A stretch of DNA of 58,205 bases from Rubrivirga marina (GTDB lineage: Bacteria; Bacteroidota; Rhodothermia; Rhodothermales; Rubricoccaceae), in assembly GCF_002283365.1 (NCBI RefSeq), contig NZ_MQWD01000001.1, positions 1,890,709 through 1,948,913 of the forward strand, written 5' to 3'. The translations under genes were made by a program, and so were the position numbers. The notes under the pieces are model-generated. The model was not told where the DNA came from, did no database searches, and saw only the letters and a list, made by a program, of their open reading frames with translations. Within the stretch, counting starts at the first letter, position 1; each line of letters starts with the position of its first letter. Positions 1 through 26,953 of the stretch are shown one piece after another.

Positions 1-1
1 A

Positions 2-11094: not shown

Positions 11095-11112
11095 GTCGTC
11101 TCCGACATCCCC

Positions 11113-11870: not shown

Positions 11871-12596
11871 GTGCCCGACCTGTCGACCGTCCCCACTCCC
11901 ATCGCGCTCGCCGCCCTCCTCCGACCCGGCGAGCGGGCCCTCCGCATCCCCGGTGCCTCCCGGTATTGGGCCACCGACCGCGGCCGCGTGTTCTCGACCG
12001 CGCGCGGCCTCCGTGAGATCAGGCCCTATGCCAAGCCGTCCAAGCGGTACCTCCAAGTGGACGTCTGGTTCGACGGCCCGGACGGGACGACCCGGAGGCG
12101 CGTCGTGTTCGTCCACGTCCTCGTCATGAGCGCGTTCGTCGGGCCCCGGCCGACCACGCCCGGCGTGGCCTACGACGTCGACCACGTCGACGGCGACCGA
12201 CAGAACAACCGGATCGCCAACCTCCGCTACATCCCGAAGGCCGAGAACGTCGGGCGCGCGATGCGCTCGGCGGCCCGGGACGGCCGTCACCCGACGGCGA
12301 AGCTCTCGCCGGCCGACGTCTGGACGCTCCGGTGCCGGGCCCACGACGAGGGGACGGCGCCGGTCGTGGCGGACGCGGCCGACGAGCTCGGCATGTCCGT
12401 CGCCGCCGTCCGCGCGGCGATCTCGGGCCGGTCCTGGCGGTGGGTCCCCGACCCGTCGGACCGCCCCGGCGTGGAGGCGCTCGCCCGCTCGCTGGGGGTC
12501 GACGCCGACGAGGCCCGCCGTCTCCTCGACCTGTCGCCGTTCGTGCGCCCAGCCGTCCGCGTGATCCCGTTCCGGTCGGCCTCCCAGGCCGCGTGA
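11871..12596 (+). CDS. HNH endonuclease with C-terminal HTH-like region
   Basis: 241 aa. GTG at 11871 is chosen because AGGAGA stands 6 bases upstream, one of the few clear Shine-Dalgarno sites here; upstream ATG 11793 is open but lacks conserved sequence. Residues 30 to 125 form a NUMOD/HNH-type nuclease: YWATDRGRVFSTARGLREI, then VHVLVMSAFVGPRP, then the catalytic DVDHVDGDRQNNRIANLRY. The C-terminal third (LSPADVWTLRCR, then ADELGMSVAAVRAAISGRSW) resembles the helix-turn-helix tail of phage and intron-type HNH enzymes. Such genes are often selfish homing endonucleases; no intron is visible here. Confidence 0.83.
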   Translation: MPDLSTVPTPIALAALLRPGERALRIPGASRYWATDRGRVFSTARGLREIRPYAKPSKRYLQVDVWFDGPDGTTRRRVVFVHVLVMSAFVGPRPTTPGVAYDVDHVDGDRQNNRIANLRYIPKAENVGRAMRSAARDGRHPTAKLSPADVWTLRCRAHDEGTAPVVADAADELGMSVAAVRAAISGRSWRWVPDPSDRPGVEALARSLGVDADEARRLLDLSPFVRPAVRVIPFRSASQAA

Positions 12597-12653
12597 CCGT
12601 AATCGGTGGCCGGCCAAACACCGGCGTGGTCGCCTGAGCTGATGCCCACAGCG

Positions 12654-12675
12654 GGAGTGCACAGCTGTGCACTCC
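12654..12675. promoter_or_regulatory. Perfect 22-bp palindrome upstream of HTH gene
   Basis: Eleven-base arm GGAGTGCACAG followed directly by its exact complement CTGTGCACTCC, with no spacer. It lies 75 bases upstream of the HTH regulator and downstream of the HNH gene. Probable operator for the adjacent regulator, or a resolution or replication site. Confidence 0.55.
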
Positions 12676-12714
12676 AGGCGGGCGTTCGCGGAGAATCTAA
12701 CCCCCCACAGTCCC

Positions 12715-12734
12715 CGTGGTGCTATCTTACCACG
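12715..12734. promoter_or_regulatory. CGTGGT-N8-ACCACG inverted repeat
   Basis: Six-base arms separated by eight bases, ending 15 bases before ATG 12750. Placement fits autoregulation of the HTH gene. Confidence 0.4.
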
Positions 12735-12749
12735 TGAGCCCGTAGCCCT

Positions 12750-13328
12750 ATGACTTACCGTTCCAACGACGCCGAAGTCGGCCGCCTCGCCCGCTTGCTC
12801 CGGGAGGAGCTCGGGCTCTCGCTGGCCGAGACCGGGGCGAGGATCGGGGCCGACCGGTCGAACCTGAGTAAGGCCGAGCGGGGCTTCCCGGGGTTCGGCT
12901 CGATCGCCCGCCGCGCGCTCGAGGAGCTCGCCGTGCTCCGGGAGGTGGAGAAGGGGAAGGGGCCTGAGGACGTCGTCCGGCGGCGGTCGCGCGTCCGCGT
13001 CGTCGTCCAACTCCCGCGGGTCGTCGACGACCTCGTCGACCGGCTCCGCGAGCCCGACCGCGGGGCCCGGTTCCTCGCGCTCCGCGAGGCGTTCGGGCGT
13101 GAGGGGATCGACGTCGCCCGCGACCCCGACCGACCGTCGGCCGCGGCGATAGGGGCACACGGCACCGTCGACCTCGACACCCTCGTCGTCCGGCTCGCAA
13201 GAGCGGACGGGGCCCGCTCGCTCCTCGCGTACCAGGGCCCGCGCGAGCCCCACCGCCTCCACGAGCACATCGACCGGTTCGCCGAGCGCGTGCTCGACCT
13301 CATCCCACCCCAGAACCGACCCCACTAA
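12750..13328 (+). CDS. XRE-type HTH protein
   Basis: 192 aa. Residues 8 to 62 form a Cro/C1-type helix-turn-helix: RLARLLREELGLSLAETGAR, then IGADRSNLSKAERGFPGF. The rest (VRVVVQLPRVVDDLVDRLRE to the C-terminus) is charged and helical, without a recognised domain. Two inverted repeats stand in its upstream region and a strong hairpin follows its stop, so it looks like a self-contained regulatory unit. It may control the plasmid-like genes around it, including the polymerase-like gene downstream. Confidence 0.78.
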   Translation: MTYRSNDAEVGRLARLLREELGLSLAETGARIGADRSNLSKAERGFPGFGSIARRALEELAVLREVEKGKGPEDVVRRRSRVRVVVQLPRVVDDLVDRLREPDRGARFLALREAFGREGIDVARDPDRPSAAAIGAHGTVDLDTLVVRLARADGARSLLAYQGPREPHRLHEHIDRFAERVLDLIPPQNRPH

Positions 13329-13333
13329 CGCCA

Positions 13334-13364
13334 GGGGGCCAGCAGGTTGCAGCTGCTGGCCCCC
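13334..13364 (+). terminator. 12-bp stem hairpin after HTH gene
   Basis: GGGGGCCAGCAG pairs with CTGCTGGCCCCC around a 7-base loop, six bases after the stop codon. No T-run follows, so termination would be stem-dependent or the hairpin protects the mRNA end. Confidence 0.5.
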
Positions 13365-13430
13365 ACGCATGGCACCTGCCGAGTCATCACTAGACAGCCG
13401 GTCTCCGCACTGCGGGGACGAGGTCCTACC

Positions 13431-13634
13431 ATGCCCGACACCGACGCGGAGCCCGACGCCCGGTTCCATCCGACCACGACGCTCGACACGACCAATCCGC
13501 CGGTCGGCGAGCCCCTCAGCCCGAGGCCCGCGGGCCGCCGGCGGGCGCGTATGGAGGCCCCTGGCAGGCCCGCCGTGAAGGCCGTCACGCGGCGCCCGGA
13601 CTGGCCGCGCCCCGGCCACAGCCCCGAGGACTGA
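13431..13634 (+). CDS. Small basic protein coupled to the polymerase-like gene
   Basis: 67 aa starting MPDTDAEPDARFHPTTTLDT, with a basic, proline-rich C-terminus (RPAGRRRARMEAPGRP). Its stop overlaps the next start (TGATG), implying translational coupling. A half-copy of the 16-bp palindrome lies about 35 bases upstream. No family recognised; likely disordered. Coding status rests on coupling and codon bias only. Confidence 0.45.
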   Translation: MPDTDAEPDARFHPTTTLDTTNPPVGEPLSPRPAGRRRARMEAPGRPAVKAVTRRPDWPRPGHSPED

Positions 13635-16054
13635 TGGCCGCCACGAACGAGGGCCGCCCCGTCCCGACGCCCCGCGGGAACGCCCGTCGGAGTGGGGACC
13701 GGCGAAAGCCGCGCGAGGACGTCCAGCGTGAGAGGCTGGCGCGCGCCCAGGCGGCCTCCGAGATCGAAGAGAGCGTGTACGTCGAGGTTCGGGGCGACCC
13801 GAGCCGTTGGCAACTGGAGGTCGCGTACACCGTCGATGGATGTCCGGACCTCGTCGCGTTCTACGACGCCGTCCGCGGCCGGTGGCGGCCGAAGGGGGAC
13901 ACCCGATGGCGGGAGGCCCGGACGGTCGTCGCGTTCCTCGACGCGTTCGCGCCCGGAGCCATCCCCGCCGGAGAGAGGCCGTGGCTGCCGGACTACGGAT
14001 ACCTGCACCTGAACGACCCAGGGAGCTGGAACCCCCAACTCGCGGCCCGGCTGGCGGCGCGCGAGGCCCGCCAGCGGGAGTGCGGTGTCCTCGGGTCGGA
14101 GCCGAAGCCAACCCAGACCCACCCCCTCCCGCGGGCGGTGGTCCTCACCCCCCGGCGGGAAGGCCCCCCCGCCGCGACGGGCGAACCGTCGACGGGCCCG
14201 CCGCCGGAGGCCCCCGAAGGCCCTGCGAAGACCCCGCCGGACAGCGCCGGCACCTCGGACGCCCGCGCGCGCGCGACCCGCCGGTCCGGGCGACCGGGGG
14301 ACAGGGGTAGGGAGGGGGCCGGCGGGCGGGGCGGCCGGAGGGCAGGGGAGGGGACGCTAGTTGGGGATCTGGAGGTCAGTGGCCGACACCAAACCGACGA
14401 GAAGGGGGGCCTACGGGCCGATCCCGAAGCCCAAACCGGGGTGTCACGAAACCCGGAAAGGGTCGAGGCCCCGGCGGGACCGACCGGGTATGTCCCGACG
14501 TCGGCCCCCGGCCTCCGGAGCCAACACGACCTCGTCGTCGGCCTCGTGAAGGGGCTCCCCTTCGAGCGTCCCGAGCTCGTCGGGCCGGCCACGAAGCTGC
14601 TCGTCCACGTCCTCCGGACGGGCCGCGCCAAGGACGGTTTCTGGGTGCCCGTCAGCTGCCGGCTCATCGAGGAGGCGACCGGCGAACACAACACGTCGGT
14701 CGTGTGGCGGCCGCTCGAGGAGGCCGGGGTCCTCGAGGTCCGACCGGAGGACCGCGAGCGCGGGCGCTCCCGGGAGTTCCGCGCTCGGGAGGACGTCGCC
14801 GACGAGTTCCTCCGGCTCGGGGCCACGTCGAGCGGGCGGCACGTCGACCTCTACACCGGAAGGCGGTCCCGGACGACGCGCAGGGTCCGCAAGACCTACA
14901 GCGACGGGAGGCCCATCCCGACCCTCATCGTCGACGCCCTCGAGGCCCTCGCCGAGAACGGGTGCCCGGTCGACTTGGCGCGGGGCCAGGCGGTCGTCGA
15001 CCGACGGCGCGCAGAGTACGAGGCCGCTAGAGACGAGTGGACCGCCGCCGGCCGGCCGGAGGAGGGCGACCTAGCGACGGCGTACAGGAGGGCCCGGGGC
15101 CGATGGACGACCGACGCCAAGTGCTGGGGGGAGGTCCGCTCCGGTCTCACCGGCGAGCGCGACGGTGTCCACTGGTACCGGCCGGCGTTCGCCCGCGACC
15201 CGCAGATGTCCGGGCGTGTCACGGAGCGCGGCGGGCTCCAGAACGCGAGCCGCCTCCTGAAGCACGAGGCGCTCTCGCCGCTCCGGGCGAGCCACGACGT
15301 CCGGAACCACGACCTCTCGTCGTCGCAGCCGTGGGGCCTCGTCCAAGAGTTCGAGGACGCGGGGGTCGACACGGCGTGGCTCCTGGAGTATCTCGCGTCG
15401 GACAAGGCGGACTTCGCCGAGCGGGCCTTCGGCGACCGGAGCGAGAGGACCGTCCGCCTGCTGAAGGACTCCTTCCTCGCGCTCGTGATGGGGGCCCGGC
15501 TCCCGACGTGGCTCGAGGATCGGGTGCCCCACTTCAAGGACGGCGCCCGGGTGAGGCCCGAGCTCCCAGCCATCGCGCGGTACGTCCGCGACCGGTTCGG
15601 CGGCGGGGCACCGACGGACGAGGCCCGGCGGGCGCTGGACGGGTTCCGCGCCGTCGTCGCGCCGTTCGTCGCGCGCCGCGACGAGTGGCTCGCCTCGTTG
15701 GAGCGCCGGGTCCTCCACGGCGACCTCCGCGTCGGTGGGCGCGGCGGGAACTGGGTCCGGAACGCCGCGGGCGTCACGCTGAACACCGACGCGTACTCGG
15801 GGTGGGAGCTCCGGAGCCAGCTGTCCGCTTTCGTGCTTCAGGGACGCGAGTCGAGCTTCATCCATCACCTCACGCTCCTCGGCGAAGACCACGGCTTCGT
15901 CCCCGTGTCAGGCCAACACGACGGGCTGGTGACGATCGGCGAGGTGCCCGAGGCGGCCGTCGAGGAGGCGAAGCGGCGGTCGGGGCTCCGCTACGCGGAC
16001 CTCAGGGAGAAGCGGTACCACCCCGACCTGCCCGTCCCCGGGCTCGACGACTGA
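13634..16054 (+). CDS. Large protein with winged-helix region and family-A polymerase-like motifs
   Basis: 806 aa. Residues 1 to 145 are an uncharacterised globular part; about 145 to 290 is a Pro/Gly/Arg-rich linker; about 300 to 400 looks like a winged helix (GFWVPVSCRLIEEATGEH, then VVWRPLEEAGVLEVRPED). The C-terminal part has, in family-A polymerase order, NHDLSSSQPWGL (Asp560, motif A-like), RTVRLLKDSFLALVMGA (Lys611, motif B-like), LQGRESSFIHHL (about 736, like the QG-x-A region) and GQHDGLVTIG (His762-Asp763, motif C-like). I infer a divergent DNA polymerase or replication protein of an extrachromosomal element. I know of no described family to which it clearly belongs. It is coupled to the small gene upstream and followed five bases later by an HNH gene. 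Confidence 0.6.
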   Translation: MAATNEGRPVPTPRGNARRSGDRRKPREDVQRERLARAQAASEIEESVYVEVRGDPSRWQLEVAYTVDGCPDLVAFYDAVRGRWRPKGDTRWREARTVVAFLDAFAPGAIPAGERPWLPDYGYLHLNDPGSWNPQLAARLAAREARQRECGVLGSEPKPTQTHPLPRAVVLTPRREGPPAATGEPSTGPPPEAPEGPAKTPPDSAGTSDARARATRRSGRPGDRGREGAGGRGGRRAGEGTLVGDLEVSGRHQTDEKGGLRADPEAQTGVSRNPERVEAPAGPTGYVPTSAPGLRSQHDLVVGLVKGLPFERPELVGPATKLLVHVLRTGRAKDGFWVPVSCRLIEEATGEHNTSVVWRPLEEAGVLEVRPEDRERGRSREFRAREDVADEFLRLGATSSGRHVDLYTGRRSRTTRRVRKTYSDGRPIPTLIVDALEALAENGCPVDLARGQAVVDRRRAEYEAARDEWTAAGRPEEGDLATAYRRARGRWTTDAKCWGEVRSGLTGERDGVHWYRPAFARDPQMSGRVTERGGLQNASRLLKHEALSPLRASHDVRNHDLSSSQPWGLVQEFEDAGVDTAWLLEYLASDKADFAERAFGDRSERTVRLLKDSFLALVMGARLPTWLEDRVPHFKDGARVRPELPAIARYVRDRFGGGAPTDEARRALDGFRAVVAPFVARRDEWLASLERRVLHGDLRVGGRGGNWVRNAAGVTLNTDAYSGWELRSQLSAFVLQGRESSFIHHLTLLGEDHGFVPVSGQHDGLVTIGEVPEAAVEEAKRRSGLRYADLREKRYHPDLPVPGLDD

Positions 16055-16058
16055 GCCC

Positions 16059-16535
16059 GTGCGACGCGAGACCCTCACCGGCGTGACCGTCGTCGTGGCG
16101 GAGACCGACCGGGACCGGTTCTGGTCCCGGGTCGACACGGAGACGACGCCCGACGGGTGCTGGCCGTGGACCGGCGCGCTCAACGCCGAGGGGCGGGGCC
16201 GCTTCTCCGCGGCGGGCGTCCGCGACTACGCCTACCGCTGGCCGCTCGTCTTCGACGGCCACCGGTTCGAGCCGGGCGACGAGATCGACCACCTCTGCGA
16301 CAACCCGGCGTGCGTGCGGCCCGAGCACCTAGAGCTCACCGACCACTTGGGCAACATGCGGGCGATGGGGGAGAGGGAGCGCGGGCCGAGCAAGCTGTCC
16401 CGTCGGCAGGCGGACGAGATCCGGGCGCGCCGGTCCGCGGCCGACCGGCCCACGCAGCGCGAACTCGCGGCGGAGTACGGCGTCGACCGGTCGACCGTCT
16501 CGCTCATCGAGGCCGGGAAGATCTGGGGCTGGTAG
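16059..16535 (+). CDS. HNH endonuclease, small
   Basis: 158 aa. The HNH core is clear: CWPWTGALNAEGRGRFSAAG, then EIDHLCDNPACVRPEHLEL, of the His-Me/HNH_3 type seen in phages. The C-terminal part (SRRQADEIRARRSAADR, then RELAAEYGVDRSTVSLIEAG) is a helix-turn-helix for DNA recognition. GTG at 16059 gives the longest form; GTG at 16083 or 16095 would remove only a few poorly conserved residues. Second HNH gene of the module and not closely similar to the one at 11871. Confidence 0.83.
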   Translation: MRRETLTGVTVVVAETDRDRFWSRVDTETTPDGCWPWTGALNAEGRGRFSAAGVRDYAYRWPLVFDGHRFEPGDEIDHLCDNPACVRPEHLELTDHLGNMRAMGERERGPSKLSRRQADEIRARRSAADRPTQRELAAEYGVDRSTVSLIEAGKIWGW

Positions 16536-16692
16536 CGCGGCGGGTGCCGCAGGGCGGCCGGCCCCCGTGGGCTCTGTGGCGTCCGGGCGAGCACTGTGAG
16601 CGGCGTCATTCGGCGGTCCGAGCGGTGAGTCCGGAGCGACGCCGGGGACGCACGGCTGCGTCTAACTTCACCGGCCGATCGAGCCCTCCGAC

Positions 16693-19600
16693 GTGCCGCG
16701 CATCTTCGACAACATCGACCTGGACCTGCTGCCGGACTTGCAGCGGTCCTTGGGCCGATCCGAGCGCGCGGACCTCTGCGTGGGGTACTTCAACCTCCGC
16801 GGCTGGCGCCATATCGGGCCCCACGTCGAGGCGGTGGCCGGCGGCGAGGGCCGGCAGTGCCGGATCATCGTCGGGATGCACCGGAGCGAGTCGGGCGAGC
16901 TCAAGGAGGCCCTTCGGCTCGACCGCGACGGCGACGGCGTCGACATGGGCGAGGCCGTCCGGCTCAAGCGGCGGCTGGCCGAGGAGTTCAAGGAGCAGCT
17001 CACGCTCGGGTCCCCGTCGAACGCCGACGAGCGGGCGCTCCGGCTCCTAGCCCGCCAGCTCGGCGAGGGCAAGGTGACCGTCAAGCTCCACACGCGGTAC
17101 CGGCTCCACGCCAAGCTCTACCTCTGCCACACGCCGGACAACCCGGTCCTGCCGACCGTCGCCTACCTTGGCTCCAGCAACCTGACGTTCTCGGGGCTCC
17201 GCGGCCAGGGCGAACTGAACATCGACGTCCTTGACGGCGACGCCGCGGCGAAGCTGACCCGGTGGTTCGAGGCCCGGTGGGCCGACCGGTTCTGCCTCGA
17301 CATCAGCGCCGAGCTCCTCGCCCTCATCGAGGAGAGCTGGGCCCGCGATGAGCCCGTCCGGCCGTACCACCTCTACCTCAAGGTGGCCTACCACCTCTCG
17401 CAGGAGGCCCGGCTCGGTCTGGCCGAGTTCGCGCTCCCGGACGTGTTCGAGCGCGAGCTGTTCGACTACCAGGCCGCCGCGGTGAGCCTCGCCGCCCGCC
17501 ACCTCTCGCGCAGGTACGGCGTCCTCCTCGGCGACGTCGTCGGCCTCGGGAAGACGATGATGGCGACGGCCCTCGCCCGGGTCTTCCAGGACGAGATGCG
17601 GCTCCGGACGCTCGTCATCTGCCCGAAGAACCTCGTCCGGATGTGGGACGGGTACCGGAGGCGGTACGGGCTCCGCGGCGCCCGCGTCCTCTCCATCACC
17701 GAGGTCCTCACGCGGCTCCCCGACCTCGAGCCGTACGACCTCGTCGTGATCGACGAGAGCCACAACCTCCGGAACCGAGAGGGCAAGCGGTACCGGGCCA
17801 TCCGGGACTACGTCCAGGCCCACGACGCCCGGTGCGTCCTCCTCACGGCCACGCCGTACAACAAGGCCTACGAGGACCTCTCGAACCAGCTCCGCCTGTT
17901 CGTCCCGCCGGACCGGGACCTCGGCGTCCGCCCGGAGGCCCTGCTCCGCGAGATCGGCGACGCCCAGTTCGAGCGGAGGTACCAGGTCCAGCCCCGGACA
18001 CTGGCCGCGTTCGAGAGGAGCCCGCACCCGGACGACTGGCGCGAGCTCATGCGGCTCTTCCTCGTCCGCCGGACCCGGTCGTTCATCAAGGAGCACTACG
18101 CGCTCGACGACGGCGGGCGGAGGTACCTCCTCTACCCCGACGGGACGAAGTCGTACTTCCCCGAGCGCGTCCCGCTCAACCTCCCCTACGGCGACGGGCT
18201 CGCCGACGACGACGCGGACCCGGCCGCCGCGCTGTACGGCGACGACGCGGTCGACACCGTCGCGGGCCTCCGCCTCCCGCGGTACGGCCTGGGCGCCTAC
18301 GCCCGCCCGGCCCCGCGGCCGCTCCCGACGCCGGCCGAGGTGGAGGTCCTCGACGGACTCTCGCGGGCCGGCACGCGGCTGGCCGGGTTCACGAAGACGA
18401 ACCTGTTCAAGCGGCTCGAGTCGAGCGGCCACGCGTTCCTCCTCTCGGTCGAGCGCCACGTCCTCCGGAACTACGTCTACATCCACGCGATCGAGAACGG
18501 GCTCCCGCTGCCGATCGGGTCGCAGGACGCCGCGCTCCTCGACCTCGGCCGGAACGACGAGGACGCCGACAGCCTGGCCGCGACGGGCGGCGAGGACCGC
18601 GAGGGCGAGGCGCTGGCCGGCGGAGCGCTCCGGGTCGGCCACGCCGCGTTCGAGGGGGCCGCGGCCCGGACGTACGAGGCGTACCGGTCGCTCAACACGC
18701 GGCACTTCACGTGGCTCCGGTCCGACCTGTTCGGCCCCGAGCTCGCCCGGGACCTCCGGGCCGACAGCGAGGCGCTCATCGGGCTCCTCGGCCGCGTCGG
18801 CGACTGGGACCCCGCGCGCGACCCGAAGCTCGACCGGCTCCGCCGGCTCCTCGTCGAGGACCACCCCGACGAGAAGGTCCTCGTGTTCAGCCAGTTCGCC
18901 GACACCGTCGACTACCTCGTCGGGCACCTGCGGGCCGGCGGGGTACAGCGCGTCGTCGGCGTGACGGGGGCGACGGAGGATCCGACGGAGGAGGCCGTCC
19001 GGTTCAGCCCCGTCAGCAACGACGCGGCGGTCCCGGCCGACCTCCAGACCCGCGTGCTCGTGACGACCGACGTCCTCTCGGAGGGCCAGAACCTCCAGGA
19101 CGCCCACGTCGTCGTGAACTACGACCTCCCGTGGGCCATCATCCGGCTCGTCCAGCGTGCCGGCCGCGTCGACCGGATCGGCCAGCAGGCCGAGCGGATC
19201 CTGGCGTACTCGTTCCTCCCGGCCGAGGGCGTCGAGCGGATCATCAACCTCCGGGGCCGGGTCCAGCAGCGGCTCGCGGCGAACGACGAGGTCATCGGGT
19301 CCGACGAGCTCTTCTTCGAGGACAGCGCCGGCCGGACGTTCCTCCGCGACCTGTACAACGAGAAGGCCGGGGTCCTCGACGACGCGCCGGACGAGGACGT
19401 CGACCTCGCGAGCCAGGCCTACCAGATCTGGACCGAGGCGACCGACGAGGACCCGGCGCTCAAGGACGCCGTCGAGGCCCTCCCGCCGGTCGTCTACGCG
19501 ACGCAGATGGCCGGCCCGGACCGGGAGCCCGGGGCCCTCGTCTACCTCCGGACGGCCGAGGGGTACGACGCGCTGACGTGGGTCAACCGCCGGGGCGAGC

Positions 19601-20076
19601 GCGTGACCGAGAGCCAGTTCGAGATCCTCCGCGCCGCGCGGTGCGAGCCGGACGCGCCCGCGCTCCCCCGGACGGACGACCACCACGCGCTCGTCGAGAA
19701 GGGCGTCCGGGGCCTCCTCCGGGAGGGGGGGAAGCCCGGGGGCCAGCTCGGGCGCCCGTCGAGCGTCCGCGCCCGGACGTACCACCGGCTCAAGGCGTAC
19801 GCCCGCGAGATCGAGGGGTCGCTGTTCCAGACGCCCGACCTCGACCGGGCCATCGAGGAGGTCTACCGCGCGCCGCTGACCGAGATGGCCGAGGCCACGC
19901 TCAAGCGCCACCTCTCGCACGGGCTCGACGGGCGGGCCTTCGCCGGCGCCGTCGCCGAGCTCCGCGACGCGGGCGACCTCGTCCAGCACCTCAACCCCGA
20001 CGAGGAGGGGACGGCCCAGATCATCTGCTCGGTCGGCCTCGCGCCCGCCGGGTACGCCCCCGCCGACCCCGCATGA
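16693..20076 (+). CDS. PLD-domain SNF2-type helicase (candidate defence protein)
   Basis: 1127 aa from GTG 16693. Residues 1 to 215 are a phospholipase-D-like nuclease fold with one HxK motif (RLHAKLYLCHT, His139/Lys141) followed by YLGSSNLTFSGL. A superfamily 2 SNF2-like helicase follows: Walker A GDVVGLGKTMMA (about 280), DESH box VIDESHNLRN (about 352), motif III LLTATPYNKAY, motif V VLVTTDVLSEGQNLQ and motif VI QRAGRVDRIGQ (about 821). The C-terminal 250 residues are unassigned. PLD plus SNF2 proteins paired with adenine methylases occur in restriction-like defence loci; DISARM DrmD is a related helicase. The stop overlaps the methylase start by four bases, so the two form one unit. Confidence 0.88.
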   Translation: MPRIFDNIDLDLLPDLQRSLGRSERADLCVGYFNLRGWRHIGPHVEAVAGGEGRQCRIIVGMHRSESGELKEALRLDRDGDGVDMGEAVRLKRRLAEEFKEQLTLGSPSNADERALRLLARQLGEGKVTVKLHTRYRLHAKLYLCHTPDNPVLPTVAYLGSSNLTFSGLRGQGELNIDVLDGDAAAKLTRWFEARWADRFCLDISAELLALIEESWARDEPVRPYHLYLKVAYHLSQEARLGLAEFALPDVFERELFDYQAAAVSLAARHLSRRYGVLLGDVVGLGKTMMATALARVFQDEMRLRTLVICPKNLVRMWDGYRRRYGLRGARVLSITEVLTRLPDLEPYDLVVIDESHNLRNREGKRYRAIRDYVQAHDARCVLLTATPYNKAYEDLSNQLRLFVPPDRDLGVRPEALLREIGDAQFERRYQVQPRTLAAFERSPHPDDWRELMRLFLVRRTRSFIKEHYALDDGGRRYLLYPDGTKSYFPERVPLNLPYGDGLADDDADPAAALYGDDAVDTVAGLRLPRYGLGAYARPAPRPLPTPAEVEVLDGLSRAGTRLAGFTKTNLFKRLESSGHAFLLSVERHVLRNYVYIHAIENGLPLPIGSQDAALLDLGRNDEDADSLAATGGEDREGEALAGGALRVGHAAFEGAAARTYEAYRSLNTRHFTWLRSDLFGPELARDLRADSEALIGLLGRVGDWDPARDPKLDRLRRLLVEDHPDEKVLVFSQFADTVDYLVGHLRAGGVQRVVGVTGATEDPTEEAVRFSPVSNDAAVPADLQTRVLVTTDVLSEGQNLQDAHVVVNYDLPWAIIRLVQRAGRVDRIGQQAERILAYSFLPAEGVERIINLRGRVQQRLAANDEVIGSDELFFEDSAGRTFLRDLYNEKAGVLDDAPDEDVDLASQAYQIWTEATDEDPALKDAVEALPPVVYATQMAGPDREPGALVYLRTAEGYDALTWVNRRGERVTESQFEILRAARCEPDAPALPRTDDHHALVEKGVRGLLREGGKPGGQLGRPSSVRARTYHRLKAYAREIEGSLFQTPDLDRAIEEVYRAPLTEMAEATLKRHLSHGLDGRAFAGAVAELRDAGDLVQHLNPDEEGTAQIICSVGLAPAGYAPADPA

Positions 20077-23000
20077 CCCTCGACCCCCGCCGCGTCCGCC
20101 GCCTCCTCGACGCCCACGACTTCGAGGAGCTGTTCCGGGAGGAGCTCGCCTGGAGCCGTCCCGAGCTTCGCGGGGCGAACGAGGTCGAGGCCGCCGGGCG
20201 GACCTACACGTGGCGGCAGGTCGCCACGGCCGGCGGCGTCCACGCGTTCGTCGTCGAGTCCGAGGACGGCGGCGTCCCCGACGCCCAGGCCCGGCGCGCG
20301 GTCGTGGCCGAGATGGAGCAATTGTTCGGCGAGCCCGTCCTCATCTTCGTCGACGCGGCCCGGACCCGGAGCCTCTGGACCTACGTCCGCCGCGAGGGCG
20401 GCAAGCTCGTCGTCCGGTCCCACCTCTACGCGAGGGACCAGCCGGTCGACCTCTTCCTGTCGAAGCTGGCCGGCCTCCTGTTCGAGGTGGCCGACTTCGA
20501 CGAGGAGGGCCGGCTCCCGCTCCTCAAGGCGACCGAGCGCGTCCGCCGGGCGCTCGACGTCGAGGGCGTCACGAAGAAGTTCTACAGGGCCTTCCAGCGC
20601 GAGCACGACGCGCTGATCGCGGCCATCGAGGGGATCCCGGACGAGGGCGACAAGCGGTGGTACGCGTCGGTCCTCCTCACGCGGCTGATGTTCGTGTACT
20701 TCCTCCAGAAGAAGGGCTTCCTCGACGGCGGGAACCGGTACTACCTCGAGGACAAGCTGAGGGAGAGCAAGGCGCGGCTGGGCGAGGACTCGTTCTACCA
20801 GGGGTACTTCCAGGAGCTCGTCCAGGCCCTCTTCTTCCAGGGGCTCGCGACGCGCGAGGACCAGCGGGACCCCGAGGTCGTCGCCCGGATCGGCCGCGTC
20901 CCCTACCTCAACGGCGGCCTCTTCCTCAAGCACGAGGTTGAGCAGCGGTACGACGGCGCGCTCGACGTGCCGGACGAGGCGTTCGAGAGCCTCCTCGACG
21001 TGTTCGGCCAGTACGACTGGTACCTCGACCCCGAGGAGCGGCCCGACGGGAGCCGGAGCCGGGACTTCCTCAACCCGGACGTCCTCGGCTACATCTTCGA
21101 GAAGTACATCAACCAGAAGGCGTTCGGGGCCTACTACACGCGGCCGGAGATCACGGAGTACCTCTGCGACCGGACGATCGACGGGCTCCTCCTCGACGCC
21201 GTCAACGGCCGCCCGGCCGCCGACGCCGCACCGTCCTCGTCGGCCACATCGCCGCACCGGTTCGAGTCGGTCAACGACCTCCTCGTCGGGCTCGACGACC
21301 GGCTCTGTGCCCGGCTCCTCTTCGACGTCCTCCCCGGCCTCCGTCTCCTCGACCCGGCGTGCGGGTCCGGCGCGTTCCTCGTGGCCGCGCTCAAGAAGCT
21401 CCTCCAGGTCTACCAGGCCGTCGTCGGCCGGGCCAAGCTGTCGTCCGACGGCGACCTCCGAGACTGGATCCGCGACGCCGAGGCCGGCCACCCCTCGCTC
21501 GCCTACTTCCTCAAGCGGAAGGTCATCACGGAGAACCTGTTCGGCGTCGACCTCATGGAGGAGGCGACGGAGATCGCGAAGCTCCGGCTGTTCCTCGCGC
21601 TCGTCGCCAGCGCGCAGACGGTCGACGAGCTCGAGCCGCTCCCGAACGTCGACTACAACGTGATGGCGGGGAACAGCCTCGTCGGGCTCCTCCAGGTCTC
21701 GGGCGAGGACGTCAAGCGGTACGCCCAGAACGACCTGTTCGGTCGGCCGTACCCCGAGCTCGTCCACGACAAGAACGCCAAGACGGAGCGGTACCGGAGG
21801 GCGACGGGGCTCGACCCCACGGTCGACCTCCAGCGGACGCGCGACGAGATCCAGGCGCTCCGGGCCGAGGCCCAGCCCCGGCTCGACCACGTCCTCGCGG
21901 CGGAGATGGTCGGCCTCGGCGTGAGGTACGAGCGGGCGACGCTCGCCGGCGGGAAGGTCCGGTACGAGAGGGAGGACCTCCGCGTCGACCACGTGGCCGC
22001 GCTCGAGCCGTTCCACTGGGGGTTCGAGTTCGCCGAGGTCCTCGCCGGGGGCGGCTTCCACGGGATCCTCGCCAACCCGCCGTGGGACAAGTTGAAGCCC
22101 GAGGACAAGGAGTTCTTCATGGCCTACGCCGACGTGGTCACGAAGAACAACATGGCGATCGAGGACTTCCGGAAGGAGAAGAGGGCGCTCATGAAGCGGG
22201 ACGACGTCCGGGCCGCCTACCTCGACTACCTCAGCACCTTCCCGTACCAGAAGTCGTACTTCCGGTCGTCCGCAGACTTCTCGCACCAACGGTCGACGGC
22301 CAACGGACGGAAGGTGTCGAGCGACCTCAACCTGTACCAGCTGTTCGTCGAGCGCAGCTGGCGACTCCTCCGACCGGGAGGGCGGTGCGGCATCATCGTG
22401 CCGAGCGGGATCTACTCCGACTTGAGCTCGAAAGGCCTCCGCACCATGCTCTTCGAGCAGAGCCGAGTCGACAGCCTGTTCGGCCTCTCGAACGAGCGCT
22501 ACCTCTTCGACGACGTCCACCATTCGTTCAAGTTCACCGTCCTCACGTTTCAGAGAGACGGTCAAACCGAGGCATTCAACGCGGCCTTCAGGCTCAACCC
22601 GCGGGAGGCCGTTGGGAAGGATCGAATCGAGACGTTCCTGACAAGCCCGTCCGAGCACGTCCACATGACGGTCGATTTGGTACGTCGACTCTCACCTCAG
22701 AGTCACGCCGTTCTCGAGTTCCGAAACGAGACGGACCGCCAGATCGCCGATACGCTTGCCTTGCACGCCCGTCTCGGTGACGTGGTGCCAGAGGCGTGGT
22801 CGGTCTCGTTCCATCGCGAGCTGCACAAGACGGGCGACAGCGACCTCTTCCATTCCACGCCGGCTCCTGGCCGGCTCCCGCTCGTTGAGGGCAAGACGAT
22901 CCACCAGTACGACCCGTCGTACTCGTCGCCTCAGTATTGGGTCGAGGAAGCTGAGGGCCGGGAGCGGCTTACGAAGCGGGGCACCGTGGACAAGAAGCAG

Positions 23001-24059
23001 GCGTACGACTATCAGACGTTCCGGCTGACCTTCCGGGATGTGGCTCGAAGCACAGATGAACGAACGACCATCGCGACGCTCCTGCCTCCCGGTCGCTTCT
23101 GCGACCACACGGCATCGTTGATCTGGACGCGTGACGTCGATGGCAAGCCGCTCGTCTCGGACGCTGAGCAGCTCTACCTCCTAGCCGTCTTCAACTCTGT
23201 CGTCTTCGATTGGCTCATCCGGTTGAAGGTCGGGATGCACCTCAGCTTATTTCTTGTCGAGAGCCAGCCGGTCCCGCGCCTCACCGAGGCGGACCCGGCC
23301 TTCCGTCCGATTGTCGAAGCCGCGGCCCGCCTGACGTGCGTCGACGCGGCGTTCGACCCGTTGGCGGCGGAGGTCGGCGTCGAGGGCGAGACGGACCCCT
23401 CGGCTCGCGCGGCGCTTCGGGCCGAGCTCGATGCCCGCGTCGCCCACGTGTACGGAGTCACGCGCGAGGAGCTCGGGCACGTCCTCGGCACGTTCCCGCT
23501 CGTCGAGGACGAGTACAAGGCGGCGGTGATGGAGGCGTACGGCGTCCTCGCCGACGCTGCCCAGGCTCCCCCCGACGACGCCGACACGGCCCGCGTCGCG
23601 GCGGCGGGCGAGTCCGACCGGGTCGAGTTCAAGTCGACGCTCCGGCGCGCGCTGAACCCTCAGGTGCCCGACCGCGTCATCGAGCACGAGGTGCTCAAGA
23701 CCGTCGCCGCGTTCCTCAACACCGACGGTGGCACGCTCCTCATCGGCGTCGACGACGGTGGTCAACCGCTTGGGCTCGACCACGACGGGTTCGACTCCGA
23801 CGACCGGATGCTCCTCCACCTAAAGAACATCGTGGAGCGGAGCCTCGGCGTCGCCGCGTTTTCGTCGTTGTCGTTCCGTGTCGTCGATCTCGGCGGCCAA
23901 CGCGTCCTCCGCGTCGACGCCCGCCCCGCACCGGAGCCGACGTACCTGACCGATAAGGTCGAGTCCGACGCGTTTTACGTGCGCACGGGGCCATCGTCGA
24001 CCTCGCTCTCGCTTCGACATGCGGTAGGGTACATCGCGCGGACGTTCCCGAGGGACTGA
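20073..24059 (+). CDS. Eco57I-class N6-adenine methylase fused to AlbA_2/Schlafen-like domain
   Basis: 1328 aa. The N-terminal 400 residues resemble type IIG/Eco57I-like proteins (LLTRLMFVYFLQKKGFLDG, FGAYYTRPEITEYL). The methylase core has SAM motif LLDPACGSGAFLVAAL (about 425) and catalytic NPPW (668 to 671). A target-recognition region covers roughly 780 to 1150. From about 1180 to the end is an AlbA_2/divergent AAA_4 (Schlafen-type) domain: ESDRVEFKSTLRRAL, then FLNTDGGTLLIGVDDGGQP. I know that domain from standalone regulators and Schlafen-like proteins rather than methylases. DNA from about 22550 to 23300, the recognition region, is visibly less GC-rich. Likely marks self DNA for the helicase complex. 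Confidence 0.87.
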   Translation: MTLDPRRVRRLLDAHDFEELFREELAWSRPELRGANEVEAAGRTYTWRQVATAGGVHAFVVESEDGGVPDAQARRAVVAEMEQLFGEPVLIFVDAARTRSLWTYVRREGGKLVVRSHLYARDQPVDLFLSKLAGLLFEVADFDEEGRLPLLKATERVRRALDVEGVTKKFYRAFQREHDALIAAIEGIPDEGDKRWYASVLLTRLMFVYFLQKKGFLDGGNRYYLEDKLRESKARLGEDSFYQGYFQELVQALFFQGLATREDQRDPEVVARIGRVPYLNGGLFLKHEVEQRYDGALDVPDEAFESLLDVFGQYDWYLDPEERPDGSRSRDFLNPDVLGYIFEKYINQKAFGAYYTRPEITEYLCDRTIDGLLLDAVNGRPAADAAPSSSATSPHRFESVNDLLVGLDDRLCARLLFDVLPGLRLLDPACGSGAFLVAALKKLLQVYQAVVGRAKLSSDGDLRDWIRDAEAGHPSLAYFLKRKVITENLFGVDLMEEATEIAKLRLFLALVASAQTVDELEPLPNVDYNVMAGNSLVGLLQVSGEDVKRYAQNDLFGRPYPELVHDKNAKTERYRRATGLDPTVDLQRTRDEIQALRAEAQPRLDHVLAAEMVGLGVRYERATLAGGKVRYEREDLRVDHVAALEPFHWGFEFAEVLAGGGFHGILANPPWDKLKPEDKEFFMAYADVVTKNNMAIEDFRKEKRALMKRDDVRAAYLDYLSTFPYQKSYFRSSADFSHQRSTANGRKVSSDLNLYQLFVERSWRLLRPGGRCGIIVPSGIYSDLSSKGLRTMLFEQSRVDSLFGLSNERYLFDDVHHSFKFTVLTFQRDGQTEAFNAAFRLNPREAVGKDRIETFLTSPSEHVHMTVDLVRRLSPQSHAVLEFRNETDRQIADTLALHARLGDVVPEAWSVSFHRELHKTGDSDLFHSTPAPGRLPLVEGKTIHQYDPSYSSPQYWVEEAEGRERLTKRGTVDKKQAYDYQTFRLTFRDVARSTDERTTIATLLPPGRFCDHTASLIWTRDVDGKPLVSDAEQLYLLAVFNSVVFDWLIRLKVGMHLSLFLVESQPVPRLTEADPAFRPIVEAAARLTCVDAAFDPLAAEVGVEGETDPSARAALRAELDARVAHVYGVTREELGHVLGTFPLVEDEYKAAVMEAYGVLADAAQAPPDDADTARVAAAGESDRVEFKSTLRRALNPQVPDRVIEHEVLKTVAAFLNTDGGTLLIGVDDGGQPLGLDHDGFDSDDRMLLHLKNIVERSLGVAAFSSLSFRVVDLGGQRVLRVDARPAPEPTYLTDKVESDAFYVRTGPSSTSLSLRHAVGYIARTFPRD

Positions 24060-24865
24060 TGGGGTATCCGCTCTACCTCATCGACGGTGGGACCGTCTTC
24101 ACCCAGCTCAAGAAGCGGGTCGCCCGCGCCAAAGCTTCCACGCCCGCTGGGAAGAAGCGCGCGGCCGCCGTCGGTCTGGCGCAGAAGACCGTCCTCGGGC
24201 CGATCAGCAATGCAGTCCAAGCAGCGGTTCCGACCGCTGCATCTCGCCGGGTGGCAGCCCTCCCTCGAGATGTGAGTCGGTTCGCCAACCTCCACGTCGA
24301 CCAGTGGATATCCCACGTCGGGCCCCACGCGTCCCAGTACGCTCGCGAGATCGACCGCCCCCCCGGATCGATCGTCCTGCCGGGAGGGGCGCTCCCGCAG
24401 GTCGTGGAGGATCACAAGGCGGACGTGAAGGCCCCGAACCGGGGGATGCTTGGGGTCATCGGCGAGGCGCTTCTGGTCGCCGCCCTCGACGTGCTCGGCC
24501 ATGGTCGGGACGACTTCGTCCAGCTCAAGATCAGCAACAAGAAGCGGTTTCCCGACTTCGCCATCGTCAACCCGAGCGGCACCTTACAGAGCCTGTTCCC
24601 GGCCTCTTCCTTGCCGGTCGACTACCTCCCCGTTGAGGTGAAAGCGAGCGGCAACGGGCGCAAGGTCCGCAAGAACGGGAAGCCGTCCAAGCAACCATCC
24701 GTTCTTGGTCCGCTGAAGGAGGCCGCGATGCAGACGCTCAGCTTCTGGAAGACGGTCGACGCCCTCGCGAAGACGAACCGGGGGCCGGGCCCAAGCGTGA
24801 TCTTCCTCGCCTCCCGGGACCTCTACCGACGGACCTTCAACCTCTTCCTCATCACCGGTCGTTAG
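24059..24865 (+). CDS. PD-(D/E)xK-type nuclease candidate
   Basis: 268 aa; ATG 24059 overlaps the methylase stop by one base. The C-terminal half shows a plausible PD-(D/E)xK active site: Glu136 (GVIGEALLVAALDVLG), Asp166 (KKRFPDFAIVNPSG) and Glu193-x-Lys195 (YLPVEVKASGNG). The N-terminal 100 residues are basic and helical (TQLKKRVARAKASTPAGKKR). I recognise the fold but no named family. In this operon it is the best candidate for the restriction effector. DNA composition is a little less GC-rich than the helicase gene. Confidence 0.65.
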   Translation: MGYPLYLIDGGTVFTQLKKRVARAKASTPAGKKRAAAVGLAQKTVLGPISNAVQAAVPTAASRRVAALPRDVSRFANLHVDQWISHVGPHASQYAREIDRPPGSIVLPGGALPQVVEDHKADVKAPNRGMLGVIGEALLVAALDVLGHGRDDFVQLKISNKKRFPDFAIVNPSGTLQSLFPASSLPVDYLPVEVKASGNGRKVRKNGKPSKQPSVLGPLKEAAMQTLSFWKTVDALAKTNRGPGPSVIFLASRDLYRRTFNLFLITGR

Positions 24866-24869
24866 GCCG

Positions 24870-25667
24870 ATGGAAGTGCCCCCGCCCCCCGACTCCACTA
24901 CCCAAGGTGATCCCCCCTCTGGGGGGCTGCTCGGGCCATACTCGAGCACCTACGCGGAGCTGTCCGCCAGCGTAGCCCGAGCCCGGGTTGCGATGTGGGC
25001 GTGGGACCTCGAAGGCGCGAGGCTCGTTGTCGCCGAAGCGCTGGAGAGTCACGCAGAAGCGATTGGTCGCTCGTTGGATGTTGCTGATGAGGTCCGCCGT
25101 TCCCTAGCGCCTGTTCAGGGGTCCGCTGGCGAAGAGACGCCCGTGGAACCGGCGACGTCAGTTCTTGCGGACCTACCGGGTTCACCCGAGTTCGCCGCAG
25201 CCTACGTGCTGAGTGGTCCGGCCGCCGTGCTCGTCCACATGCTCGAACGAGTGGGTTCTCCCAGCGAAACGCCGTCGAGTAGCCCCCCGTCTTCTTTCCG
25301 CTTCCGGACGGTGATGGAGTCCGATGGGAGAGTCCGGCTCCGAGGCTACTCGACCTCGGGTGAGCCTTTCGGCCTCGACCAGATCCAGTCAGGACTCACG
25401 GGGACGTTCGACACGCCGGGAGTCGTGCTGGTGGCGCCCGACGACGAGGCTCAGTCGGGGTTCTCGGCGCTGTTCCGGTTAGCCGTTGCCGCCCCAGGTC
25501 CGCTAGGCACCATGGGCGAACCCGGCTCCACGACGGCTCTGCTGGACGTGGAGGTCCACGGCGACCTGATCGAGGCCCTCTATGTCCCCGTCGATCCGAT
25601 CGCGGACCCCGCTCTTGTGATCAACAGAATCGCCGCCGTCGCTAGCTCGGCCCTCCCTGAGTCCTAA
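24870..25667 (+). CDS. Unknown protein in candidate defence operon
   Basis: 265 aa starting four bases after the nuclease stop. Residues 30 to 75 are helical (ELSASVARARVAMWAWDLEG, then ARLVVAEALESHAEAIGRSL); the C-terminal half looks like a mixed alpha/beta domain (VRLRGYSTSGEPFGLDQI, then TALLDVEVHGDLIEALYVPV). No catalytic motif, signal peptide or membrane segment is visible. I do not recognise it. Its position between two nuclease genes suggests a structural or sensor part of the system. Confidence 0.6.
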   Translation: MEVPPPPDSTTQGDPPSGGLLGPYSSTYAELSASVARARVAMWAWDLEGARLVVAEALESHAEAIGRSLDVADEVRRSLAPVQGSAGEETPVEPATSVLADLPGSPEFAAAYVLSGPAAVLVHMLERVGSPSETPSSSPPSSFRFRTVMESDGRVRLRGYSTSGEPFGLDQIQSGLTGTFDTPGVVLVAPDDEAQSGFSALFRLAVAAPGPLGTMGEPGSTTALLDVEVHGDLIEALYVPVDPIADPALVINRIAAVASSALPES

Positions 25668-25676
25668 GACCCGTCC

Positions 25677-26738
25677 ATGCTCATCGACGCGCTCAACCCC
25701 GCAGCCCTCGTCCGGGTCCGCGACGCCCTCGCCTCGGTCCCGTCGTTCCCCGAGGCCGAACGGGCGATCGAGGCCCGCCAGCATGTGCTCGATCGGTTCG
25801 GACCGACGTTCACCCCCGACCGGGTCGCCACCATTGACGCCGAGGAGTTCCAGGCCTTCCTGGCCTTCAAGAACAACCGGCACTGGACCGGGCTGGAGCG
25901 GCAGGGCCCGAAGATCTGCTCAGACATGCCCGCGCTCCGCGAGGCTCTTGGACGCCTCCTCGACGAGTCCCGTCCGATCGGGTTGAGGGCGACCGAGGCG
26001 GTCGACATGGTGACCGGGATGGGCCGGGCCATCGCCACGGCTGTCCTCCAGGTCGCGTACCCCGGCGAGTACGGGGTCCTCAACAGCACGTCGGAGGGGG
26101 GCATGAGGGCGGTGGGGCTGTGGCCGGAGTTCGCCCGCGGCCTATCGTTCGGAGAGAAGTACGACCGCGTGAACCAGGTTCTGGTCAAGACCACGGCCGA
26201 GGTTGGAGTCGACCTCTGGACTCTCGACGCGCTGTGGTACATAGTCCTTCAGTTGGAAACGACCGAGGCCGCCACTCCGGCCCCCGTAGGTGCGCCCAGC
26301 GCGGACGCCGAGCCCAACGGGGGAGGTGTCCGGTTCGGGCTTGAGCGTCACCTCCATGACTTCCTCCGCGACAACTGGGACAGCGGCCCCTTCGGGGCCG
26401 AGTGGGCTCTCCACGCCGAGCCCGGCGACGACGAGGCCGGGTATGAGTACCCCTGCGACGTCGGCCGCATCGACCTCCTCGCCCGTCATCGGAGGACCAG
26501 GGACTGGCTGGTCATCGAGCTGAAGCGGGCCCAGAGCAGCGACCAGACCATCGGGCAGGTTCTCCGCTATGTCGGGTGGGTCGAGGAGCACCTCGCCGAG
26601 GACGGAGAAGGAGTCCGGGGCCTCATCGTCGCCCACGACGCCGACCTCGGCCTCCTGTACGCGCTGAGAGGCGCCCACGGGGTTGACCTCAAGCTCTACG
26701 AGGTCGAGTTCAACCTCCGGGACGCCCCATCGATCTGA
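25677..26738 (+). CDS. Protein with C-terminal NucS-like endonuclease domain
   Basis: 353 aa. The C-terminal 140 residues match the NucS/DUF91 nuclease core: YPCDVGRIDLLARHR (Asp near 265), DWLVIELKRAQSSDQTIGQV (Glu/Lys of the ExK motif near 279 to 281), then LRYVGWVEEHL. The N-terminal 190 residues are helical with a glycosylase or HhH-like flavour (GLERQGPKICSDMPALREAL, then TGMGRAIATAVLQVAYPGEY) and could recognise a DNA lesion or mark. A linker joins them. Last gene of the cluster, nine bases after the previous stop. Likely a second nuclease effector; the substrate is unknown. Confidence 0.75.
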   Translation: MLIDALNPAALVRVRDALASVPSFPEAERAIEARQHVLDRFGPTFTPDRVATIDAEEFQAFLAFKNNRHWTGLERQGPKICSDMPALREALGRLLDESRPIGLRATEAVDMVTGMGRAIATAVLQVAYPGEYGVLNSTSEGGMRAVGLWPEFARGLSFGEKYDRVNQVLVKTTAEVGVDLWTLDALWYIVLQLETTEAATPAPVGAPSADAEPNGGGVRFGLERHLHDFLRDNWDSGPFGAEWALHAEPGDDEAGYEYPCDVGRIDLLARHRRTRDWLVIELKRAQSSDQTIGQVLRYVGWVEEHLAEDGEGVRGLIVAHDADLGLLYALRGAHGVDLKLYEVEFNLRDAPSI

Positions 26739-26764
26739 CGACACGGTGCTCCAAGTCCGGTCGT

Positions 26765-26813
26765 CTGGGGATTAGCTTTCCGGCAGGCTCTCAGGCCGAC
26801 TAACTATCCCCAG
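26765..26813. repeat. Imperfect inverted repeat next to the att site
   Basis: CTGGGGATTAG faces CTAACTATCCCCAG: the outer seven bases pair exactly and the inner TTAG/CTAA also pair, with a short offset. It could be the transcription end of the five-gene operon or a recombinase accessory site. Confidence 0.35.
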
Positions 26814-26832
26814 CGGTCAACATGCGGTCAAC
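26814..26832. repeat. Direct repeat pair CGGTCAAC
   Basis: Two exact copies of CGGTCAAC at 26814 to 26821 and 26825 to 26832, 11 bases apart start to start, about 60 bases from the tRNA fragment. Spacing of one helical turn near an attachment site suggests integrase arm-type sites. Confidence 0.35.
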
Positions 26833-26890
26833 GTCCCGCGTGGCCGCCGAAACCTCCACCGCCAGCGCTGAATCCCCCACTTCCGGCCTC

Positions 26891-26943
26891 GGAGCAGCTC
26901 ACTCGTAATGAGCAGGTCGTCGGTTCAAATCCGACCGTTGGCT
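26891..26943 (+). other. 3' fragment of tRNA-Thr(CGT), putative attachment site
   Basis: Contains the 3' strand of the D-stem, a complete anticodon arm (GCTCA, loop CTCGTAA, TGAGC; anticodon CGT at 26904 to 26906), a complete T-arm (GTCGG TTCAAAT CCGAC) and the 3' acceptor strand CGTTGGC plus discriminator T. The 5' half is missing: the sequence before 26891 cannot pair as acceptor or D-arm, so no functional tRNA is made. Such 3' fragments are the scar left when an element integrates into a tRNA gene. Given its plus orientation, the element should lie to the left and the intact tRNA at its far end, outside the window. Confidence 0.8.
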
Positions 26944-26953
26944 CTCATCGAAG

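Follow-up and report, generated by a model that had tools for sequence, protein, structure and literature searches.

A tRNA-Thr(CGT) 3′ fragment as the very probable right end of a 72.7-kb metal-resistance and defence island in Rubrivirga marina

Introduction

Integration into tRNA genes follows a general mechanism that is textbook knowledge. A tRNA-Thr(CGT) gene lacking its 5′ part, located just downstream of a nuclease gene and upstream of a terminator-like hairpin, therefore raises the question of whether it marks one end of an integrated island and, if so, where the other end lies and what the island carries. Here, we address this question for a stretch of 58,205 nucleotides (the window) from the chromosome of Rubrivirga marina (genome G000; 4.98 Mb, 11 contigs, 97% complete), which corresponds to G000:C1:1890709-1948913.

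Results

A tRNA-Thr(CGT) gene without its 5′ part

Four features frame the locus (positions without a contig name are those of the window).

26892..26944, plus strand: tRNA-Thr(CGT) 3′ fragment (tRNA positions 21-73), repeated exactly, over 53 bp and in direct orientation, in the intact tRNA; interpreted as the right attachment site and as the host's own 3′ half, moved away from the rest of its tRNA
About 26950-26984, plus strand: terminator-like hairpin with a T-run, 3′ of the fragment (fold and terminator scan)
1..26944, plus strand: the part of the island within the window, of which the remaining 45.8 kb extends left to the intact tRNA
G000:C1:1845132-1846190 (outside the window), plus strand: tyrosine recombinase (integrase) of 352 aa (PF00589 and PHROG)

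The original prediction had placed the fragment at 26891-26943; the fragment is real, but these coordinates are one base off, its exact extent being 26892-26944. In line with that prediction, the anticodon arm (GCTCA-CTCGTAA-TGAGC, anticodon CGT), the T arm (GTCGG-TTCAAAT-CCGAC) and the 3′ acceptor strand are all complete and the 5′ part of the tRNA is missing, with the GAGC of the D-arm side also kept. ARAGORN called no tRNA anywhere in the window, and the Rfam tRNA model scored the fragment at 28.6 bits (gathering score 29), aligning over model positions 10-63 of 71 only. Folded alone, the fragment was unremarkable compared with shuffled sequences (z -1.19; 24 of 200 shuffles as stable); it is sequence identity with the tRNA, rather than folding, that carries the case. 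No predicted gene overlaps the fragment; a 101-aa reverse open reading frame (26899-27204) does.

The segment immediately downstream (26945-26998) folds with -24.2 kcal/mol (z -3.67; none of 200 shuffles as stable) and a terminator scan matches at 26957-26977, which bears out the terminator anticipated 3′ of the fragment. Presumably, this hairpin is the original terminator of the tRNA. Similar hairpins, as judged by eye from the sequence, lie 3′ of tRNA-Thr(CGT) in the genomes G001, G003 and G004.

The fragment repeats an intact tRNA 72.7 kb to the left

Searching the whole genome with a 36-base probe (up to three mismatches allowed) returned two matches, both exact and both on the plus strand, and a reversed control probe returned none. 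The second match is an intact tRNA-Thr(CGT) gene at G000:C1:1844897-1844970, in the same orientation as the fragment and the only other copy of it found in the genome. The two share a block of 53 bp (53/53 identical) that ends at the tRNA 3′ end, with similarity extending beyond it on neither side, and are spaced 72,683 bp apart. Among exact direct repeats of at least 22 bp in this 72.7-kb interval the block is the longest, the next longest measuring 31 bp. In a 114.9-kb region, scans with 17-mers and 13/14-mers brought up neither a third copy of the attachment site nor any remnant of one; likewise, none was found just before the G004 orthologue of the predicted gene g002.

By published criteria for tRNA islands, the interval is thus very probably an island with a regenerated tRNA at one end and a displaced 3′ fragment at the other. 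The claim that the fragment marks the right end of an integrated island is supported by the intact tRNA, the exact repeat and the integrase at the other end. Indeed, an upstream tRNA-Thr(CGT) with some 50 identical 3′ bases and an adjoining integrase had been proposed as a check, and was found with 53 identical bases and a PF00589 integrase starting at position 1845132. The island had been sized at 26.9 kb or more; the interval found is 72.7 kb, which encloses the defence genes, the plasmid-like module and also the copper operon, whose inclusion had been given as a possibility. Two runs of N (27 bases at G000:C1:1885779-1885805; 119 bases at 1890590-1890708, ending directly before the first base of the window) lie within the island, which makes its precise length a matter of how the contig was assembled; the genes on either side of the longer run are ordered as on G001:C7, a contig of a sister species. 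The GC contents of island (73.6%) and left flank (73.9%) are alike.

An integrase adjoins the intact tRNA

The integrase gene starts about 160 bp inside the left end, ahead of all other predicted island genes, and matches PF00589 (8.7e-35; 120.5 bits, cut-off 27.1) as well as a PHROG integrase family (1.1e-60). What we take to be the catalytic positions can be read in its sequence, namely Arg (TGLR), HxxR (HSLRH), a late His (LGH) and Tyr (RYAH). In an alignment with the integrases of G001, G003 and G007, the two arginines (of TGLR and of LRH) and the Tyr do not vary, while those three integrases have other residues in place of the first HSLRH His and the LGH His. Pfam scans of 51 of the 53 predicted island genes showed no second integrase.

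At E 1e-60, matches to the integrase occur in 6 of 119 genomes (its own included), the other five being 38-40% identical and from other genera. Three of these five have at least one tRNA within the 2.6-4.0-kb locus (Ala-GGC; Cys-GCA with Arg and Pro; Lys-CTT). The match in G026 starts 99 bp after a tRNA-Ala(GGC), a layout as in G000, with no second tRNA-Ala copy in its 16.9-kb contig; nor did the stretch examined around the G023 relative contain a second tRNA copy. The relative in G004 adjoins a 37-bp exact fragment of tRNA-Leu(TAA), the intact gene lying 6 kb off, and the only tRNA within 18 kb of the G063 relative is about 3 kb away. Integrases of this group thus often, though not always, stand beside tRNAs. 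A tRNA-Cys match beside an integrase relative in G007 was considered as an attachment pair and not counted, as it is inverted. A search of genome contigs and viral contigs, reaching close relatives only, found no relatives of the integrase; 772 plasmid records match it, 771 of them below 60% identity and one at 60-80%, and the eight matches listed are 27-30% identical.

As a separate observation, the G004 tRNA-Leu(TAA) fragment represents the 5′ side (positions 3-39; L111:7546-7582, with the intact gene at 13615-13700), and this locus is perhaps another tRNA island, of the rarer 5′-fragment type.

The island carries metal-resistance genes flanked by defence genes

A coding-score caller predicted 53 genes in the island, with approximate starts and with small genes possibly missed. 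Pfam scans covered 51 of them, leaving out g025, which crosses a locus border, and g041, which crosses an N gap; PADLOC and PHROGs were each run on 10 of the 53. The call g041 spans the 119-N stretch and merges two genes, an outer-membrane channel and an adaptor as on G001:C7, and was used, as a merged call, for similarity only. Genes g057 and g058 were scanned as longer open reading frames (24059-24865 and 24870-25667), and g053 also as an 806-aa one.

Outside the window, the left end encodes the integrase, a DUF5131 protein (PADLOC PDC-M41B), the Shedu protein SduA (PADLOC 3.3e-99), a secreted endonuclease I-like protein, FG-GAP/PKD proteins and a Y-family DNA polymerase. The middle encodes a two-component system, a multicopper oxidase, two metal P-type ATPases, MerR, MerT, a mercuric-reductase-like protein (HMA and pyridine-nucleotide oxidoreductase domains), a sigma factor with an HMA domain and, reaching into the window, an RND metal pump, a cupredoxin and an S24 peptidase. 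Within the window, the island comprises the following.

1393..6070, plus strand: metal-efflux operon with a CusA/CzcA-type RND pump (1393-4728), an M23 peptidase (4725-5585) and a cupredoxin (5582-6070) (Pfam); its adaptor-coding end lies before 1393
6165..6671, minus strand: S24 peptidase, UmuD/LexA-like (Pfam PF00717)
8317..11673, plus strand: plasmid-like module with an open reading frame (8317-8838), a DUF6166 protein (9087-10013), an ArdC-type antirestriction/M78 protein (10091-11005) and a RadC-like protein (11233-11673) (Pfam)
11871-12596, plus strand: HNH endonuclease (Pfam, PHROGs)
12750-13328, plus strand: helix-turn-helix protein (Pfam match below the curated cut-off)
13634..16054, plus strand: 806-aa open reading frame (coding-score call starts at 14546), no family match
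16059..16535, plus strand: HNH endonuclease (Pfam PF13392)
16693..20076, plus strand: 1127-aa PLD-nuclease and SNF2/helicase protein (Pfam; PADLOC)
20073..24059, plus strand: 1328-aa Eco57I/MmeI-type methyltransferase (type IIG-like) with a Schlafen AlbA_2 domain (Pfam; PADLOC REase_MTase_IIG, 3e-104)
24059..24865, plus strand: 268-aa open reading frame, no family match
24870..25667, plus strand: 265-aa open reading frame, no family match
25677..26738, plus strand: 353-aa protein with a NucS/YhcG-type nuclease domain, PADLOC candidate PDC-S02 (PF01939; PDC-S02, 2.3e-36)

The PDC-S02 nuclease gene is the last of the island and ends about 150 bp before the fragment. For the 1127-aa protein the best PADLOC match is HKD+Snf2 (7.8e-43), and it is also DrmD- and DpdE-like; the 806-aa open reading frame, placed between the helix-turn-helix gene and an HNH gene, has no Pfam or PHROGs match. 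Y-family polymerases and UmuD-like peptidases are usual operon partners; in this island, the polymerase (L004:11287-12657) and the S24/UmuD-like peptidase are about 33 kb apart.

The Pfam scans (51 of 53 predicted genes) recognized no relaxase, no type IV secretion or coupling family and no phage structural family, so that the island genes leave transfer from cell to cell without explanation; neither was a ParA or replication family recognized among the scanned genes. A reading of the island as an ICE was dropped given that its own relaxase and secretion/coupling genes are absent from these scans, and so was a prophage reading, as capsid, portal, terminase and tail genes are absent (Pfam on 51 and PHROGs on 10 of the 53 genes).

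The middle of the island is collinear with a putative plasmid

Eighteen of the 53 island genes, all between g020 and g050, have reciprocal best hits on the 138,760-bp contig G001:C7, at 46-92% amino acid identity (67-92% for the metal-efflux operon). Their order is fully conserved (rank correlation -1), every one of the 18 lying on the opposite strand, and the collinear stretch makes up the middle 38 kb of the island. Three of the four genes of the plasmid-like module are among those with reciprocal best hits in the same order, the ArdC protein having none. By Pfam, G001:C7 encodes ParA-type, VirB11-like (T2SSE), VirB8, CagX (VirB9-type), TrbI (VirB10-type) and VirD4-type proteins. Collinearity with a contig carrying ParA-type and type IV secretion genes makes a plasmid origin probable, and the middle 38 kb is probably derived from a plasmid related to this putative plasmid contig, which would link the copper/mercury genes of this chromosome to a contig with plasmid features in the sister species. 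Neither island end (integrase to Shedu on the left, helicase and methyltransferase on the right) has a reciprocal best hit there. The simplest reading would be a plasmid-type metal-resistance block in the middle with defence genes at both ends.

At the DNA level, two island stretches of 19-20 kb (L005 and L004) have matches in eight of eight family genomes at E <= 0.001, the strongest of those listed being in G001, G002, G003 and G007 at 77-88% identity, and the right-hand 19.9 kb (window 6900-26800) matches five of the eight at E <= 1e-10 with 66-83% identity. The two best named plasmid matches of the RND pump are Salinibacter ruber NZ_CP030363.1 and NZ_CP030371.1, both 67% identical. A VirD4 query matches G000:C5 and not the island, and the VirD4-like gene on that contig is a possible helper for transfer.

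tRNA-Thr(CGT) as a probable hotspot in related genomes

A 40-base tRNA probe (up to three mismatches) matched 6 of 60 genomes, namely G000 itself, G001, G003, G007, G022 and G048. With a 17-base core (up to two mismatches), 8 of the 9 family genomes gave matches, the exception being G002 (81% complete); across the 15 genomes searched with this core, 14 had matches, some of them in plainly unrelated sequence.

In G001, intact tRNA and fragment are 15.1 kb apart, with a separate integrase beside the fragment. In G003, the intact tRNA is followed by type I restriction genes on one contig, and a fragment with an integrase lies on another. In G006, 5.8 kb separate the two copies, a metal ATPase and a cation-efflux protein are encoded in between, and no integrase is among the predicted genes of this remnant; in G007, the fragment adjoins an integrase split into two open reading frames, and the intact gene was not found in the draft. 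Intact tRNAs only were seen in G004, G005 and G008, for the latter two on contigs of 7-8 kb, and G043, from outside the family, has an intact and a fragment-like copy on two contigs. Thus, tRNA-Thr(CGT) looks like a hotspot, occupied in G001, G003, G006 and G007 by other elements or by what is left of them. The integrases of G001, G003 and G007 are 57-63% identical to each other and only 28-34% to that of G000, and at least two integrase lineages therefore use this tRNA. Independently of this, the fragment in the G006 remnant (L066:6460-12400) has a changed anticodon base.

Proposed integration and its direction

Integration of a recombinase-bearing mobile element into tRNA-Thr(CGT) accounts, with high confidence, for the fragment, the repeat and the position of the integrase. 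Such an element would have encoded a tyrosine recombinase, its attP containing the 3′ 53 bp of tRNA-Thr(CGT), and would have recombined with the chromosomal gene by a crossover within the shared block, probably in the anticodon stem-loop. The 3′ half brought by the element would have rebuilt an intact tRNA at the left, integrase-bearing end, and the host's own 3′ half would have been pushed 72,683 bp to the right together with its terminator, where it would now form the fragment. We infer the act of integration from what is observed: the repeat, its orientation, the integrase beside the intact tRNA and the finding of no other copy.

In G000 both 3′ copies are identical and hold no information on direction. 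In two relatives the T arms differ: G001 has GTCAG-loop-CTGAC in the fragment and GACGG-loop-CCGTC in the intact gene, G003 GACAG-loop-CTGTC and GTCAG-loop-CTGAC, respectively. As these changes fall on both sides of the stem and every version is paired, the two 3′ halves in each of these genomes have separate histories, as expected if one half came with the element. However, the G001 fragment equals the G003 intact half over 45 nt, a half that the same model would have the element supply, and the T stems therefore do not show which half is the host's. Further evidence comes from the left flank, where an ABC-F gene left of the tRNA is common to G000, G001 (81%) and G003 (74%); a glycosyl hydrolase gene stands between it and the tRNA in G000, and the content following the tRNA differs in each genome. 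Based on this retained left flank and on the 3′ fragment lying on the far side, the 5′ half of the tRNA would belong to the host, and the insert would run from the rebuilt 3′ half through the fragment.

Going further, tRNA-Thr(CGT) might serve as a docking port across the family, at which integrases unrelated to one another exchange the 3′ half of the tRNA for one of their own, the T-stem variants being a record of the exchanges, and at which a metal block from a conjugative plasmid was captured between anti-phage systems and alternates between plasmid and chromosome. We regard this reading as tentative and rather doubtful.

Alternative explanations

The strongest alternative concerns how the island grew. 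A small integrase-bearing element may have entered the tRNA first, with the metal block and the defence genes added later by other routes such as homologous recombination or transposition, in which case the 72.7 kb would not be one mobile unit today. The chances of this are about even. It would fit with collinearity to G001:C7 being confined to the middle (18 reciprocal best hits, none at either end), with a right end of lower GC (70.8%) than the middle (74.9%), and with the smaller size (15.1 and 5.8 kb) of those relatives' elements at tRNA-Thr(CGT) whose size is readable; it sits less well with the lack of a third attachment-site copy in the 114.9-kb region and of a second integrase in the Pfam scans. 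Such a composite history would refine rather than exclude integration at the tRNA.

Fragments of tRNA genes can arise in other ways, and the one studied here might be left over from a segmental duplication or represent a decayed tRNA gene (pseudogene), in either case unrelated to integration. This is very unlikely, given an exact 53-bp block that ends at the tRNA 3′ end, without flanking similarity and in the correct orientation; an integrase adjoins its other copy, and relatives show the same arrangement involving different integrases. That the fragment resembles a tRNA by chance, as the Rfam score just below cut-off, the negative ARAGORN result and the ordinary fold might suggest, is refuted by the 53/53 identity to the genome's own tRNA-Thr(CGT) and by there being two such places in 4.98 Mb, and has a negligible probability.

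Relation to known islands

Integration at the tRNA places the locus within a described class. According to the Islander report (PMC4383910), such islands have a 3′ fragment downstream of its tRNA in the same orientation, an interval of 2-200 kb and a tyrosine integrase inside, with Xer and integron integrases set aside and fragments that overlap a conserved protein domain filtered out; 3′ fragments (3760 of 3919) and anticodon-centred sites (2083 of 3919) are given there as the commoner classes. Here, tRNA and fragment lie on one replicon in the same orientation, the fragment reaches position 73, the integrase matches PF00589, the interval is 72,683 bp and the shared block covers the anticodon loop, as in the anticodon-centred class. 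In contrast to the islands described there, the present island exceeds the two size peaks (13.6 and 39.9 kb) and has a cargo of metal resistance and defence, with no phage structural or type IV secretion genes recognized.

The integrase-bearing plasmid pHS87b of Pseudomonas aeruginosa (PMC4739549) likewise uses the 3′ end of a tRNA-Thr gene as its insertion site, but is 11.2 kb long, has phage-related genes and comes from an unrelated host, and only part of the present island is plasmid-like. A study of Sinorhizobium meliloti (PMC11476347) similarly describes one tRNA reused by different elements, with repeats of 46-49 bp, yet the hot spots there are tRNA-Lys and tRNA-Asn and the inserts phage-related. 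G001:C7, despite its 18 genes collinear with those of the island middle, is not at tRNA-Thr, and its transfer and partition genes were not recognized in the island; the two S. ruber plasmids share the similar RND pump and are not at tRNA-Thr either. Among the matches listed, the literature held nothing on the present island or on tRNA-Thr islands in this group.

With the mechanism already known, what appears to be added here are the ends of the island and the repeated use of tRNA-Thr(CGT) in related bacteria. Both ends are now fixed for a metal-resistance and defence island in a little-studied high-GC group, and the comparison points to a family-wide integration hotspot with exchanged tRNA halves that are readable from T-stem variants.

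The island locus in relatives and the right flank

The comparison with a strain lacking the island, proposed in the original prediction, was possible in part. Among the matches listed for about 59 kb of island DNA against eight family relatives, no strong one lies at a tRNA-Thr(CGT) locus, and the only ones on a tRNA-Thr(CGT) contig are two short, weak matches (<=131 bp) in the metal-ATPase region of G006:C266. However, no unoccupied site was found among the same-genus genomes G001-G003 (searches of G002 did not turn up the tRNA itself), and to the right of the tRNA the relatives vary in gene order. G004, from another genus, has a single tRNA-Thr(CGT) copy with different neighbours.

The 19 predicted genes after the fragment had no match above 60 bits in the tRNA loci of G001, G003 and G007, and none in the G003 fragment-side and G006 loci; for window 27-38 kb, the comparison with relatives covered these loci. 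The right flank of G001 is collinear with G000 at 4.43 Mb (L037 versus L015/L016); with the block right of G001's fragment sitting elsewhere in G000, the tRNA locus is a rearrangement breakpoint between both species. Farther right, window 38.3-58.2 kb matches the 3.95-Mb contig G004:C1 at 2.50 Mb as well as contigs of G003 and G007 and, judged by these matches, looks like ordinary chromosome.

Three smaller observations concern this flank. Directly right of the fragment, a low-GC 299-aa open reading frame (27242-28141; GC of 55% at 27-28 kb) has no Pfam match and is sulfotransferase-like by eye only. Within 38300-44000, GC drops to 40-52% at 39-42 kb and the region partly matches glycosyltransferase/polysaccharide genes of relatives, perhaps representing a separate foreign insert right of the island. 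Finally, the start of an open reading frame at 50427-51362 resembles, by eye, an IS110-type transposase.
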